The position numbers and the translations under genes were made by a program. From positions 124,001 through 188,000 of the forward strand of contig JAFIGV010000027.1 of assembly GCA_017849575.1 (NCBI GenBank): a stretch of DNA of 64,000 nucleotides. Reading direction: 5' to 3'. Of this stretch, positions 5,767 through 10,458 are shown in pieces; position 1 is the stretch's first letter, and every line of letters begins with the position of its first letter. This stretch comes from Flavipsychrobacter sp. Its GTDB lineage: Bacteria; Bacteroidota; Bacteroidia; Chitinophagales; Chitinophagaceae. The notes below the pieces were generated by a model. That model saw nothing but the letters and a program-made list of their open reading frames with translations. It was not told the origin of the DNA and did not search any database.

Positions 5767-7071
5767 TCAGGTCGACACGGCGGCTTTGTAAGCCTGCAGG
5801 CAACGTTCGCGCGCTTCTGCATGATCTACCATGGGCTTAGGATACGTAGCGGTGCCATACTCCGGCACCCAGTTTTTTACATACTCCAAATCAGGATCAA
5901 ATTTCTCCTGTTGTGTGACAGGATTGAAAATTCGGAAATAAGGAGCGGCATCAACACCACTGCCTGCTACCCACTGCCAGTTGCCGATGTTTTGCGACAT
6001 ATCATAGTCCAGGAGTTTTTTAGCAAAGTAAGCTTCGCCCCAGCGCCAGTCTATGAGCAGATGTTTGCACAAAAAGCTGGCAGTAACCATTCTTACACGG
6101 TTGTGCATCCACCCTGTTTCGTTGAGCTGCCGCATGCCCGCGTCCACAATTGGGTAGCCGGTTTTTCCCGCACACCAGCGTTCGAATTCTTTTTCTGCGT
6201 AGCGCCACCGAATATTGTCGTAAGCCGGCTTGAAGGAGGCAGAGACCGTATGCGGAAAATGATATAGAATGCCGGAAAAGAAATCTCTCCAGATCAGCTC
6301 GCCCAGCAAAGTTTCATTGAGCAGCCTTGCGCGGGCAGCAATTTTCCTGATGCTCACGGTGCCAAAGCGAAGATGGACGCTGAGTTCTGTGGTTCCTTTT
6401 TGGGCAGGGGTATTGCGGGTTTTGTGATAGTCTTTCGCAATTTCCTCGTTGAGCTCCGGCGCCACTGCTACGTAGGGGGCTTCTTCAAAACCGATACTTT
6501 GCAGACCGGGAAACCTTTTGGCGGGCTGCTTGAAAAAGCGATCGCAATACTTACCGGTAGGATAGGGTTTTAGAAAAAAATCATCAAGCGACTGTTTCCA
6601 TTTCTTACTGTAGGGCGTGTACACCGTGTAGGGTGTGCCGTCGTCCTTCAGAATTTCGTTTTTTGCAAAGATCACCTGGTCTTTGAACGCCTGGAAGCCT
6701 ATACCTTGTTGCAAAAGCATCTCAGCGATTTCGCGGTCGCGTTGCAGGGCATAAGGTTCATAATCCTCGTTAGTAAACACGTGCACTACGGTATAATCTT
6801 CGAGTATTTTTTTGAAACAATCGCGGGGGGTACCTTGTAGAATATGCAGAGTACTGCCTTGTTTTTCGAGTTGTTGCTGAACGGCATAAAGGGCGTCGCG
6901 GATAAAGCTCAGGCGTTTGTCGTTCTTGTCTTCAAGGTCTTCCAGTATCTGTGAATCATAGATAAAAACGGGCACCACCGGATAGCCTGTGCGTAGTGCG
7001 TAGTACAAACCGGCGTTGTCATCAATACGAAGATCCCTGCGAAACCAGAAAACTGTTACTGCCTGCGACAT
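5767..7071 (-). CDS. phrB: Deoxyribodipyrimidine photolyase (cryptochrome/photolyase family)
   Basis: 434 residues. The N-terminal antenna domain begins VFWFRRDLRIDDNAGL. The C-terminal FAD-binding domain carries WRDFFSG, DAGMRQLNETGWMHNR and DMSQNIGNWQWVAGSG, including the Asn/Trp pattern of class I CPD photolyases. The enzyme uses blue light and reduced FAD to split cyclobutane pyrimidine dimers. The C-terminal sequence and the bacterial length favour repair rather than a signalling cryptochrome. ATG at 7071 directly opens the family N-terminus. It is a single gene. Confidence 0.92.
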   Translation of the reverse strand: MSQAVTVFWFRRDLRIDDNAGLYYALRTGYPVVPVFIYDSQILEDLEDKNDKRLSFIRDALYAVQQQLEKQGSTLHILQGTPRDCFKKILEDYTVVHVFTNEDYEPYALQRDREIAEMLLQQGIGFQAFKDQVIFAKNEILKDDGTPYTVYTPYSKKWKQSLDDFFLKPYPTGKYCDRFFKQPAKRFPGLQSIGFEEAPYVAVAPELNEEIAKDYHKTRNTPAQKGTTELSVHLRFGTVSIRKIAARARLLNETLLGELIWRDFFSGILYHFPHTVSASFKPAYDNIRWRYAEKEFERWCAGKTGYPIVDAGMRQLNETGWMHNRVRMVTASFLCKHLLIDWRWGEAYFAKKLLDYDMSQNIGNWQWVAGSGVDAAPYFRIFNPVTQQEKFDPDLEYVKNWVPEYGTATYPKPMVDHAEARERCLQAYKAAVST

Positions 7072-7116
7072 AGAAGCTTTGTAAACAAAGGAGGCATAAA
7101 AATGTTGCCTTAAAAA

Positions 7117-7148
7117 GCAAAAAGAGCAACCGCGTCAACGATTGCTCT
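7117..7148 (-). terminator. Rho-independent terminator of the Nfu gene
   Basis: On the minus strand AGAGCAA (7148-7142) pairs with TTGCTCT (7129-7123) and is followed by a T-rich run (TTTTTGC). It lies 24 bases downstream of the Nfu stop codon. Confidence 0.75.
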
Positions 7149-7171
7149 CCGGGATATATTTTGGGAAGTAA

Positions 7172-7765
7172 CTATTCCGCTTCAGCCACTACCTCTTTCA
7201 CTTCAGGTATCATGCGTTTCATCATGCCTTCGATGCCTGCTTTCAAAGTAATCATAGAAGAGGGGCAACCCGAACAGGAGCCTTGCATCATCAGCTTTAC
7301 GGTGCCATCTTCATAGCCGCGGAAACTAATGGCTCCACCGTCCATTTCCACTGCCGGTTTCACATAGTTTTCCAGCAGTTCTTTGATGCGTTTCACTACA
7401 TCACTATCGTCCGCATGCACATCGTTGGATGCTACGGGCTTCGCCACAATCTCATCTTCGTTGATCACCACTTTACCATCCTGCAGGTAGGTTTTTAAAA
7501 ATTCGCGGATGGTCGGAATCACTTCGTCCCATTGTGTTTCCTGCGTTTTGGTAAGGGTTACAAAATTGCTTGCAATGAATACGCTGCGTATAAACGGAAA
7601 TGCAAAAAGTTCTTTAGCGAGCGGAGAAGGCGTAGCGCTGGCCTCATCCTGAAAATCAATGCTCTTGCCGGGATACAATAATTTGTTAGCAACAAATTTC
7701 ATGGTCTCCGGATTGGGAGTCATCTCGGTATATATGCTCACGATGGTGTTACCGGTCTTCAACAT
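7172..7765 (-). CDS. NifU/Nfu iron-sulfur cluster carrier protein
   Basis: 197 residues from the ATG at 7765. The frame extends to 7822, but that leader is not family-like. The N-terminal Nfu_N domain (YTEMTPNPETMKFVAN) spans about 1-90. The C-terminal NifU domain contains GSCSGCPSS, whose two Cys residues near 163 and 166 bind a [4Fe-4S] cluster in a homodimer. Nfu proteins pass clusters to apo-enzymes. The Nfu_N plus NifU two-domain form is common in Bacteroidota and in mitochondria. It stands alone, with a clear terminator behind it. Confidence 0.92.
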   Translation of the reverse strand: MLKTGNTIVSIYTEMTPNPETMKFVANKLLYPGKSIDFQDEASATPSPLAKELFAFPFIRSVFIASNFVTLTKTQETQWDEVIPTIREFLKTYLQDGKVVINEDEIVAKPVASNDVHADDSDVVKRIKELLENYVKPAVEMDGGAISFRGYEDGTVKLMMQGSCSGCPSSMITLKAGIEGMMKRMIPEVKEVVAEAE

Positions 7766-7944
7766 AATTTCAAAAATTTCTGAAGAGCAAAAATACTTAA
7801 TTAATGCAGGCTTTTGGCGCATGCCCCCCTTGAGAAATTCGATAGCCTTATAGGGGTAAGGTATTTTTTAACATTCATCGGCCTGAGACCTCGTGCTGAC
7901 GGTACAGTTTTTCAACTTATTGAAACAGAAAAAAAATTGGAACT

Positions 7945-8352
7945 ATGAAACAGATGATTTTAATGCTCGCTGTGTTCGGGTCCTTATCGATAAATGCAGC
8001 GGCGCAAACGAACAGAACTTATTATTCGAACATGCAGACCCGGCAGATGTATGAGAACGAACAGCGTGGAGCAACCCCCGCGCAGAGAAATGTGGAATTA
8101 AATACGGGTACGCAGACCCTTCAGCAGGAAGAGAACGACAACCTGAATATGAACCGTGTGCAGCCTTATCAGGGTTATCGGCAAATGAACAATCAGACCG
8201 AACAGCAACTCCACGACAACAATCGTAAATGGGATGAAATATCCCGCGATGATCTGCCCTATCGATCCATACCTTATGATACGTCAAAGAATAACGGTAA
8301 TTGTATAGGATGTGGTTCGGGAACCATGACCGATCCTCACCTCTGGAAATAA
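7945..8352 (+). CDS. Small secreted protein of unknown function (1 of 3)
   Basis: 135 residues. A signal peptide (MKQMILMLAVFGSLSINAAA, cleavage before or after Gln) is followed by a hydrophilic, Gln/Asn-rich, low-complexity chain. Near the C-terminus it has NCIGCGSGT, a CxxC pair. No family is recognised. The next two genes also encode short exported proteins of 121 and 134 residues with similar signal peptides but little clear sequence similarity. They could be small surface or matrix proteins, or substrates of a lineage-specific system. The gene is followed by a terminator, so it appears to be its own transcription unit. Confidence 0.75.
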   Translation: MKQMILMLAVFGSLSINAAAQTNRTYYSNMQTRQMYENEQRGATPAQRNVELNTGTQTLQQEENDNLNMNRVQPYQGYRQMNNQTEQQLHDNNRKWDEISRDDLPYRSIPYDTSKNNGNCIGCGSGTMTDPHLWK

Positions 8353-8378
8353 CCCATACCAAGGGTTAAAGATTATAG

Positions 8379-8406
8379 AAAAGCTGCGGGAAACTGCGGC
8401 TTTTTC
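8379..8406 (+). terminator. Rho-independent terminator after small secreted protein 1
   Basis: AGCTGCGG at 8382-8389 and CTGCGGCT at 8394-8401 pair with two G-U wobbles around a GAAA (GNRA-type) loop. Flanking A/T pairs and a T run (8401-8405) complete a normal intrinsic terminator 30 bases past the stop. Confidence 0.7.
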
Positions 8407-8460
8407 TTTGCGGCGGTATGATCTTGATTGCTATGAAGTAAGAACAAAAACACTCAGCAT

Positions 8461-8826
8461 ATGAAACAGATGTTCAGTATACTCATTGCAATTGTTGCGT
8501 GCGCGGCTACCGCTCAGGCACAGGCGAACCGCGAACCTGTGGTTGTGCCCGATGCACCCAACACTTTCGACATACGGGCCGACCTCAACTACAGTTATGC
8601 CGATCAGGGTAGGGTGATGTTTATAAACAACAGTGCATTCTACAATAAGGACAACATGATTCGTCAACCTATACCGGTTAGTAATGGTCGCTACACGAAG
8701 CCAGGCAACAGCAACCCTATTAATCGGCAAATGAATCAGCAACCCCCTCTGCCTAATCCCACCCTCTACAATGGAGGTATTCCTGTGTGGCACGCTGCGG
8801 ACCCTGCGGAGAGCCGGCAGCGGTAG
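8461..8826 (+). CDS. Small secreted protein of unknown function (2 of 3)
   Basis: 121 residues. The signal peptide MKQMFSILIAIVACAATAQA begins like that of the previous small protein (MKQM). The mature part is rich in Asn, Gln, Pro and Tyr and has no recognisable domain or Cys pair. Its composition suggests an extended or disordered exported protein. A short antisense frame of 141 codons covers the same bases but has no family features and was dismissed. Signal peptide and ATG position support this start. Function unknown. Confidence 0.7.
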   Translation: MKQMFSILIAIVACAATAQAQANREPVVVPDAPNTFDIRADLNYSYADQGRVMFINNSAFYNKDNMIRQPIPVSNGRYTKPGNSNPINRQMNQQPPLPNPTLYNGGIPVWHAADPAESRQR

Positions 8827-8928
8827 CGTGGGTTTAACGTATTGTTGGGACAACATCGAAGCTAACGGTATGGTGTTTTATTTAGGGTAAAGGAGAACAT
8901 GATTAACGGAGATAAAAACTAAAGGACT

Positions 8929-9333
8929 ATGAAAAAGATTGGGATAGCACTGATCGTGCTGGGGCTATATGCCACGGAAGCCGATGCCCAAAGCTCGGCG
9001 CACAGCAAGTTTGCTAAAAATTATCCGGTGTGCCTGGTGGGCAATCATTATGAGGTATGCAGCGCCGCCGCCGCAGAAGGTCAGCAGCCCGGCCGAAGTG
9101 AAGAGATTGCCGGCTTTGGCATGCAGAATACCTATGTGCACATGGGGTACAGCAACCGGGGAAACGCCCGTTATCGCAGCAGAATTCGTGTAACTTATGA
9201 CGAACCCGGCGCAGTATATGAGGGCAAGAATACCATGACGAACGGTGGGGTACGAAAAAACAAATTGAGAAATCTAAACACTAACAACGGCGCTTACGAT
9301 CTGCCGCCGAGTGATGGCCGTATTGGATTTTAG
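8929..9333 (+). CDS. Small secreted protein of unknown function (3 of 3)
   Basis: 134 residues, with signal peptide MKKIGIALIVLGLYATEADA. The mature chain holds two Cys separated by about 13 residues (PVCLVGNHYEVCSAAA), which could form a disulfide, then a basic region rich in Arg, Asn and Gly. No family is recognised. A strong terminator follows. The three small secreted genes are spaced about 100 bases apart on the same strand and look like a local cluster of exported accessory proteins rather than one operon. Confidence 0.7.
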   Translation: MKKIGIALIVLGLYATEADAQSSAHSKFAKNYPVCLVGNHYEVCSAAAAEGQQPGRSEEIAGFGMQNTYVHMGYSNRGNARYRSRIRVTYDEPGAVYEGKNTMTNGGVRKNKLRNLNTNNGAYDLPPSDGRIGF

Positions 9334-9366
9334 CATTGAACGGCAGCAGTGTTTCACTGATACTGG

Positions 9367-9401
9367 AAGCGCCGGGACATATGGGTCCCGGCGCTTTTTT
9401 T
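9367..9401 (+). terminator. Strong Rho-independent terminator after small secreted protein 3
   Basis: GCGCCGGGAC (9369-9378) and GTCCCGGCGC (9385-9394) form a perfect 10-bp stem, extended by AA/TT, with loop ATATGG and a run of seven T. Confidence 0.9.
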
Positions 9402-9474
9402 ATGAGGCGGCGCCGGTGAGCCTGTAATGGCAGGGAATTTTTGAGGCTTATGGGTAAAAAAATCGAAGTAGTCC

Positions 9475-10458
9475 ATGACCACAGCAGAGCAATACAAAGC
9501 GGCAGGCGAGCGTGCAGCGCAGCGGCAAGCAGCCCTTCAGGATGTTATCGAAAATCTGGAAAGCGGCCTATCTTCGGAAGGCGCTATGCAAGCGGGCGCG
9601 AGGCCTTACCCCGAGCCCCCTGTTGCCCGGCAGCACCTTGAGAAACCGGGCAATGAACACAACCTCGACGTTGAGCCAATGTATGATGCTCCTTTCTATA
9701 AGGGATCAGAAAAGTTAGCAGGCAAAGTTGCATTGATCACCGGTGGTGATTCCGGTATCGGACGTTCGGTAGCACTACTGTTTGCCCGCGAAGGGGCGGA
9801 TGTGGCGATTGTGTATCTCAATGAACACGAAGACGCTCGCAAGACCGGCACTCTGGTGGAAAAAGAGGGTAGAAAATGCCTGCTCATCCCGGGCGATGTA
9901 ACCGATCCGGATTGCTGTCGCTACGTTGTGAGCGAAACCATACGTATCCTGGGTGGGCTGGATGTATTGGTTAACAATGCTGCCTTTCAACTCCATGTAC
10001 CTGATCTGCCCGCACTGAGTGAAGATCATTTCGACTGTACGGTCAAGACAAATCTGTACGGATATTTTCACATGGTACAGGCGGCAGTAGAACACATGAA
10101 GCCGGGTAGTGCTATTATCAATACCGGCTCTGTAACCGGCTTGACGGGACATAAAGATCTTCCCGACTACTCCCTGACCAAAGGCGGCATTCATGCCTTT
10201 ACTCGCGCGCTGGGAACACTGCTTATACCCAAAGACATTCGGGTAAACGCAGTAGCGCCGGGGCCGGTGTGGACACCCTTAAACCCTTCAGATAGCAGTG
10301 CTGAGGAAATAGCCGACTTTGGTAAAACGTCGCCCATGGGCCGGCCGGCACAGCCCGAAGAAATAGCGCCAGCTTATGTGTTTCTGGCATCGTCGCATTG
10401 TTCCAGCTACATCACCGGAGAAGTGTTGCCTGTCATTGGCGGTTACATTAGTCGCTAA
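9475..10458 (+). CDS. SDR family oxidoreductase (general stress protein 39/YhxC-like)
   Basis: 327 residues. An N-terminal extension of about 80 residues rich in Ala, Gln and Pro precedes the Rossmann domain. The NAD(P) motif TGGDSGIGRS, NNAA, and the catalytic Ser with YSLTKGG (Tyr-x-x-x-Lys) are all present. The C-terminus SSYITGEVLPVIGGYI is typical of classical SDRs. The extension and the 'PMYDAPFYKGSEKLAGKVALITGGDSGIGR' style region (only partly quoted here) match the GSP39/YhxC group, which is often induced by stress; substrates are not established. The gene lies between a strong terminator and a CPBP protease gene, probably as its own unit. Confidence 0.85.
   Translation: MTTAEQYKAAGERAAQRQAALQDVIENLESGLSSEGAMQAGARPYPEPPVARQHLEKPGNEHNLDVEPMYDAPFYKGSEKLAGKVALITGGDSGIGRSVALLFAREGADVAIVYLNEHEDARKTGTLVEKEGRKCLLIPGDVTDPDCCRYVVSETIRILGGLDVLVNNAAFQLHVPDLPALSEDHFDCTVKTNLYGYFHMVQAAVEHMKPGSAIINTGSVTGLTGHKDLPDYSLTKGGIHAFTRALGTLLIPKDIRVNAVAPGPVWTPLNPSDSSAEEIADFGKTSPMGRPAQPEEIAPAYVFLASSHCSSYITGEVLPVIGGYISR

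Follow-up and report, generated by a model that had tools for sequence, protein, structure and literature searches.

Small exported proteins that are specific to one lineage are common, and they are difficult to study singly. For the locus described here, the closest described systems include two bacterial promoter classes. The consensus of sigma-54 (-24/-12) promoters is given as TGGCAC-N5-7-TTGCT (PMC12316311). A study of F. psychrophilum connects sigma-54 promoters with gliding, the response to envelope stress, and exported proteins whose function is unknown; it connects ECF-type SM6 promoters with secretion and envelope genes (PMC9723704).

The window, which is the whole stretch of DNA analysed, comprised 64,000 nucleotides of Flavipsychrobacter sp. 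(contig JAFIGV010000027.1). Three frames, ORF1, ORF2, and ORF3, followed one another on the forward strand beside a divergent nfu gene. ORF2-type proteins are called family B and ORF3-type proteins family C below, and G546 denotes a second genome of the same genus. The features of the locus were as follows.

7175..7765, minus strand: nfu (Nfu/NifU-like Fe-S carrier, named from sequence; ORF 7172-7822), divergent neighbour and synteny anchor
7900..7913, plus strand: promoter-like box CGGTACAGTTTTTC, 45 nt before ORF1, motif score 13.4
7945-8352, plus strand: ORF1, 135 aa, predicted exported, Gln/Asn/Thr-rich, CIGC close to the C-terminal end
8302..8313, plus strand: CIGC of ORF1, inside YDTSKNNG-x-CIGCGSG, identical in G546 save x
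8378-8405, plus strand: intrinsic terminator separating ORF1 from ORF2, -17 kcal/mol, z -3.0
8461-8826, plus strand: ORF2, 121 aa, predicted exported, Asn-rich family B
8866..8879, plus strand: promoter-like box CGGTATGGTGTTTT, 63 nt before ORF3, motif score 12.0
8929-9333, plus strand: ORF3, 134 aa, predicted exported, family C
9019..9060, plus strand: Cys-hairpin module NYPVCLVGNHYEVC of ORF3, holding C35/C44
9184..9330, plus strand: conserved C-terminal tail of ORF3, 41 of 49 residues as in G546
9365-9398, plus strand: strong intrinsic terminator after ORF3, -27.4 kcal/mol, z -6.6

The original prediction of three exported proteins in a row agreed with the frames found, which encode 135, 121, and 134 residues. 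By inspection, each carried a signal sequence of the Sec type, in which a basic n-region led into a hydrophobic stretch and the end before Gln resembled A-x-A (AAAQ in ORF1, AQAQ in ORF2, and ADAQ in ORF3). The predicted CxxC and spaced Cys pair were located as CIGC in ORF1 and C35/C44 in ORF3, respectively. The MKQM start ascribed to two of the proteins was present in the window, but the same-genus orthologues began with MKQV and MKKM.

All three genes were kept in G546, in unchanged order and adjoining nfu, with 45–62% identity between the encoded proteins. When the orthologous genes were compared, the differences at the three codon positions were 51/41/80 for ORF1, 44/42/81 for ORF2, and 44/30/89 for ORF3; the third position thus held the most differences in each gene, and the synonymous sites were saturated. 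The dN/dS values were therefore taken from a closer pair of genomes (G117/G510) and were 0.08 for ORF2 and 0.05 for ORF3, with no close pair existing for ORF1. In the window, ORF1 and ORF2 were overlapped by long open antisense frames; in G546, every antisense frame contained stops. ORF1, ORF2, and ORF3 are real coding genes under constraint, and homologues were found, contrary to the possibility raised with the original prediction that the frames have no relatives or are not translated.

The absence of known domains was also borne out. ORF1, ORF2, and ORF3 had no match above the cut-off in Pfam or NCBIfam, the window proteins had no convincing match in PHROGs or PADLOC, and the profiles had none among PDB sequences. 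Nothing but single weak matches was obtained for 20 ORF3 relatives (Pfam and NCBIfam) and 6 ORF2 relatives (Pfam). The best weak matches overall were COX16 for ORF1 (E 6.5e-4) and HK97 portal for one ORF3 relative (E 0.002). The COX16 match (PF14138) spanned the signal peptide and a Gln-rich stretch and was taken as chance, at 20.4 bits against a cut-off of 27 bits. The c-type cytochrome motif CxxCH was absent from ORF1, which reads CIGCG with no His after it. Rfam gave no match within 7000-9600 at gathering scores. The families of ORF1, ORF2, and ORF3 had no apparent account in the literature searched, and the ORF2-type and ORF3-type families are undescribed according to the literature, Pfam, and NCBIfam searches.

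The window proteins resemble cargo of Type IX secretion in being exported from a member of the Bacteroidota. However, no NCBIfam match to a Type IX C-terminal sorting domain was obtained for the window proteins (E ≤ 1) or for 20 ORF3-family members (E ≤ 0.1). The ORF3 tail was likewise rejected as a general sorting signal, because just one or two proteins per genome carry it, mostly one.

ORF3 had the layout of family C, which consists of a signal peptide, a Cys-hairpin (NYxVC-x4-6-YxxC), a variable linker, and a conserved C-terminal tail of about 45 residues (YEGK.s..NDGV.KN..RNLN......LPP.DG). When ORF3 was compared with its G546 orthologue, identical residues numbered 41/49 in the tail, 15/23 in the hairpin stretch, 21/38 in the linker, and 5/21 in the signal peptide. 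The strict hairpin pattern occurred once in 51, twice in 7, and not at all in 13 of 71 family C frames, which come from two collections and include some frames counted twice. The hairpin profile matched 30 of 37 chosen genomes.

The reach of family C depended on the query. A single-sequence search with ORF3 gave relatives in 10 of 147 genomes of the same taxonomic family, its own included. The full-length profile matched 9 of 396 genomes of the order (E ≤ 0.001), three of these matches (E 6e-4 to 7e-4) being partial and in longer frames. The tail profile (C-terminal 47 positions) matched 35 of 344 same-family genomes in 15 of 101 genera (E ≤ 0.05), including two genomes in two genera, G622 (E 0.009) and G561 (E 0.03), that were not counted as convincing. 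After these two were dropped, 39 tail places in 33 genomes were counted; G011 was a distant match (E 1.5e-4). The family profiles were built partly from sequences that the same profiles later found. In its own genome, ORF3 was the sole clear tail member; the other two matches were weak, with E 0.004 and 0.03, and were judged by eye to be a short exported protein of dissimilar sequence and a protein resembling peptidyl-prolyl isomerases. Judged by its Cys-hairpin, C-terminal tail, and signal peptide, ORF3 is a member of a clade-wide undescribed family.

Several variants of this architecture were observed. The Cys-hairpin was present twice in the ORF3-type proteins of L122, L123, L125, L129, and L130. 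A second gene, 3' of the ORF3-type gene, encoded a Cys-hairpin but another conserved ending, PGPETQSG...GI.SWNG.W (L165:4636-5016, L172:4309-4686, and L177:4331-4708 on the minus strand). Short His/Lys-rich exported proteins with the tail alone adjoined iscA at L013:1489-1791 and L017:1498-1791 (minus strand).

Since the single-protein searches with ORF1 and ORF2 were poor in matches (1 of 147 same-family genomes for ORF1, its own; 3 of 147 for ORF2, own included), profiles were built for both. The family B profile matched 20 of 344 same-family genomes (E ≤ 0.001). Twelve matches were strong (E < 1e-10). The other eight were weak, with E from 8e-6 to 1e-3, and six of them lay in open frames of 340–675 residues. 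Asn made up 20% of the mature chain in 13 family B members, which share the motifs NNS.FYNKDN and NG.Y..PG.SNP.N. All 12 strong family B genes lay directly upstream of a family C gene on the same strand. The converse failed, in that many family C genes had no family B gene; among the best 80 named nfu loci, 6 of the 23 with family C had one. ORF2 was Asn-rich, contained both motifs, and lay directly upstream of an ORF3-type gene, and it is the local form of the recurring Asn-rich upstream partner of family C.

Residues 11–14 of ORF2 (IVAC; 8491-8502 of the window) fit the letters of a lipobox, but very near the N-terminal end; in the G546 orthologue (L113), a lipobox-like ITGC was similarly placed at residues 8–11. 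In most other family B members no lipobox-like Cys was seen by inspection, and an A-x-A-like end followed. By inspection, the signal peptide ended in a lipobox Cys in neither ORF1 (first Cys at 120) nor ORF3 (first Cys at 35). ORF2 could conceivably be a lipoprotein.

The ORF1 profile gave clear matches in two of the 37 chosen genomes, its own (G000) and G546. Four weak matches (E 0.016–0.074), two of them inside ORF3-family genes, all began at profile position 1 and therefore reflect largely the signal peptide. Comparison of ORF1 with family B by hhalign gave a probability of 91%, but over 39 columns that were mostly signal peptide. The ORF1 orthologues had 50% of residues in common overall, and the conservation of YDTSKNNG-x-CIGCGSG between such diverged proteins suggests a functional CxxC. 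As read from sequence, the set is not one of three equal orphans: ORF3 belongs to a clade-wide family, ORF2 is the Asn-rich partner of that family, and ORF1 is a gene found in two genomes only. Its proposed lineage-specific character was upheld, as relatives of ORF3 and ORF2 recur in one Chitinophagaceae branch and ORF1 in two genomes.

A de novo search of 63 thinned family upstream stretches gave the motif TGG[CA]ACGGTTTTTA, located about 60 nt before the start codon of many family genes. Its EM log-likelihood was 171, compared with 43–54 in five block shuffles, for which fewer starts were used. At a score of at least 12, the box preceded 27 of the 63 family genes (36 lacked it at score 12) and 4 of 238 other genes, two of these four being small exported genes of such clusters. 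The counts were 36 and 19 at score 10, and 24 and 2 at score 14, respectively. The background genes came from the same stretches, and each was preceded by 100 nt or more of free DNA. These statistics are inflated by kinship, the 63 stretches being thinned but not independent and the background being thinned by the first 30 residues only. Because the matrix was trained on family genes, a hold-out test was run, in which training used 15 family C genes from stretches that contained no nfu and testing used 32 genes beside nfu. At a score of at least 12, the held-out box was found before 11 of these 32 genes and 6 of 238 others (Fisher p 9e-8), and across six thresholds (8–13) p was between 9e-8 and 4e-5. 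Among the hold-out matches scoring at least 11, 9 of 11 were located at -58 to -63.

Of 28 box-bearing stretches, 14 had a TTAAC that began 11–12 nt ahead of the box, compared with a background of 9% for TTAAC anywhere within 20 nt. The boxes of ORF1 and ORF3 were weaker forms of the motif, and the DNA upstream of ORF2 (score 7.2) had no box. In the window, TTAACA was present at 7868-7873 before the ORF1 box, off the usual spacing of 11–12 nt, and none stood at that spacing before the box of either ORF1 or ORF3. Seven family genes in stretches without nfu or iscU scored at least 14 (L122-L126, and L136 twice). A distinct box thus stands upstream of many family genes, including some at sites without nfu, and few other genes have it.

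The box was compared with the described promoter classes. Its TGG[CA]AC matched the -24 half of sigma-54 promoters, TGGCA[CG], and was followed by a T-run. However, the -12 GC, about 10 bp after the -24 GG, was found at four offsets in 0 of the 28 box-bearing stretches, which had been selected from the 63 by a score of at least 12; TA, AA, or AC was commonest at that position. A canonical sigma-54 promoter was rejected on this -12 half. The Bacteroidota sigma-A box, TAnnTTTG (near -7), occurred exactly in 3 of 24 upstream stretches and in none of those in the window. ECF-type SM6 promoters resemble the box in differing from this sigma-A sequence, but no CGT column was conserved at a set distance downstream of the box, and no second element at a fixed distance was seen in the 28 box-bearing stretches. 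The F. psychrophilum data (PMC9723704) support an envelope link for the promoter-like box by analogy only, and they favour none of the surface, adhesion, or signalling roles that had been proposed.

The pattern TTAACA-N3-9-GGNAY-NN-TTTT had 37 matches in 16 chosen genomes and 23 for a reversed control, so that more than half of the matches would be expected by chance. Of 30 matches examined, four preceded ORF3-family genes, and others preceded genes for an M43 peptidase, a Zn-dependent phospholipase C, an outer-membrane (OMP) barrel, and a catalase. In five genomes from three genera (L266, L268, L274, L279, and L280), TTAACA...GGNAY..TTTT was also observed 46–157 nt upstream of genes for a single kind of exported protein, probably of the outer membrane (kinship by eye); of three such proteins scanned in NCBIfam, one was weakly BamG-like (44.6 bits; cut-off 250). 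Such envelope-type genes are a lead to possible further targets.

The two strong terminators, 8378-8405 and 9365-9398, were confirmed by folding energy and z score, and neither was among the matches of a simple terminator scan. By eye, G546 had a similar hairpin with a T-run at the place of the ORF1–ORF2 terminator. Nothing comparable was found between ORF2 and ORF3 (z -0.2). Individual expression, as first proposed for all three genes, fits clearly for ORF1 only, which has a terminator behind it. ORF2 and ORF3 have none between them, and their B–C pair recurs in relatives, although a separate promoter-like box precedes many ORF3-type genes.

The reading that we favour, tentatively and at somewhat below an even chance, is that the set consists of small exported envelope or surface proteins under a special promoter. 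The genomic place of the genes bears on two rival explanations. Orthologues of nfu were found in 144 of 147 same-family genomes (E ≤ 1e-40). Named nfu loci were gathered with nfu as the query, and the best 80, anchored on nfu by design, were used. A family C gene was present in 23 of them, on the opposite strand and on the upstream side of nfu in 23/23; one of these loci (L149) was truncated at the end of its contig and gave a weak match (E 3e-4). Within these best 80, the family C-bearing loci included those of Flavipsychrobacter MAGs, Taibaiella soli, and Chitinophagaceae bacterium LGM1; no Chitinophaga locus among the 80 had family C. From the tail side, 22 of the 39 places adjoined nfu divergently, and at 7 of the 22 iscU lay on the opposite flank; 3 adjoined iscU only; G543, at a contig edge, adjoined iscU and probably nfu. 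Neither nfu nor iscU was found at 13 of the 39 in the stretches read. In the window, nfu was adjacent and isc/suf genes were not; a short-chain-dehydrogenase-like gene lay 3' of ORF3.

The locus may be a passenger, that is, a benign insertion of three unrelated genes that share a site beside nfu and keep their place by inertia. The site content ranged from none to three genes. In G020, a genome of the same genus without the genes (L064), iscS-iscU-iscA-nfu were all oriented alike and iscA and nfu were about 40 nt apart; in G546 and G094 the small-gene cluster occupied the iscA–nfu gap on the other strand. Either insertion or loss could account for this difference. The restriction of ORF1 to two genomes, and its likeness to family B in the signal peptide and a short stretch only, would also suit a passenger. 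However, family B lies beside family C in 12/12 strong matches, the promoter box common to the family is found at other sites too, and the frames are under coding constraint; this explanation is rather unlikely. As a separate observation, opposite-strand small exported genes split the iscS-iscU-iscA-nfu unit at L066, L113, and L143 when these loci were compared with L064.

Alternatively, the proteins may be Fe-S or metal/redox accessory proteins that work with Nfu/SUF in iron or oxidative stress. The proximity to nfu in all 23 family-bearing loci of the anchored set (23/23 by a design that used nfu as the query), the 22 of 39 unanchored tail places beside nfu (7 also beside iscU) with 3 more beside iscU only, the short His/Lys-rich members next to iscA, and one catalase gene with a similar DNA pattern 175 nt upstream of it are consistent with this. 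Nfu and SUF act in the cytoplasm, whereas these proteins carry signal peptides, and the family genes run opposite to nfu. Further, the 13 tail places with neither nfu nor iscU include the stretches in which seven family genes score at least 14 for the box, and no metal-binding pattern is conserved in the family beyond the Cys pair, which the short His/Lys-rich members lack. We consider a role with Nfu/SUF unlikely.

Secreted antagonistic peptides or toxins (bacteriocin-like), changing fast through conflict, would be small, exported, Cys-bearing, and fast-diverging as these are (45–62% identity to G546), but the dN/dS of 0.05–0.08 in G117/G510 denotes constraint, the C-terminal tail is conserved and not variable, no immunity-like partner was seen by eye, and PHROGs and PADLOC had no convincing match, which makes antagonism very improbable.

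For small exported envelope or surface proteins under a special promoter, the following mechanism is proposed, in which we infer the promoter function, Sec export, disulfide, and envelope role of the set. The box would be part of a promoter read by an alternative sigma factor, either of the ECF type or a divergent sigma-54, that is linked to envelope or surface conditions, and Sec would export the proteins. Once outside the cytoplasm, the hairpin cysteines of the ORF3 type would pair in a disulfide, and the chain, flexible elsewhere, would thereby gain one small rigid knob. The AlphaFold model of ORF3 (20 sequences; mean pLDDT 52) was poor, and its best-scored blocks formed a two-stranded hairpin at residues 34–43 (strands 34–37 and 40–43; block means 73 and 69). 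The ORF2 model was also poor (mean pLDDT 44), and since both models are poor, a flexible chain may mean only a chain that was not predicted. The ORF3-type tail would provide a conserved binding face, and the accompanying Asn-rich protein may be a flexible co-factor or a matrix-like envelope component. A wider version of the mechanism, which we regard as a long shot, is an envelope-response circuit peculiar to this Chitinophagaceae branch, in which a dedicated sigma factor would read TTTAACA-N5-6-TGG[CA]ACGGTTTTTA and turn on repeat-built disulfide-hairpin proteins, with the tail docking on a surface partner or released as a peptide, the Asn-rich protein as mate, and outer-membrane protein genes as further targets.

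The relatives recur in one branch, usually by nfu and often behind the box, and these are therefore real lineage-specific proteins. The set is real, undescribed, and more structured than the original prediction had it, and it belongs to no named family. The family definition, the partner, the synteny anchor, and the box together make three orphans testable; the box predicts genes that would be co-regulated, and the tail predicts a surface that may bind a partner.
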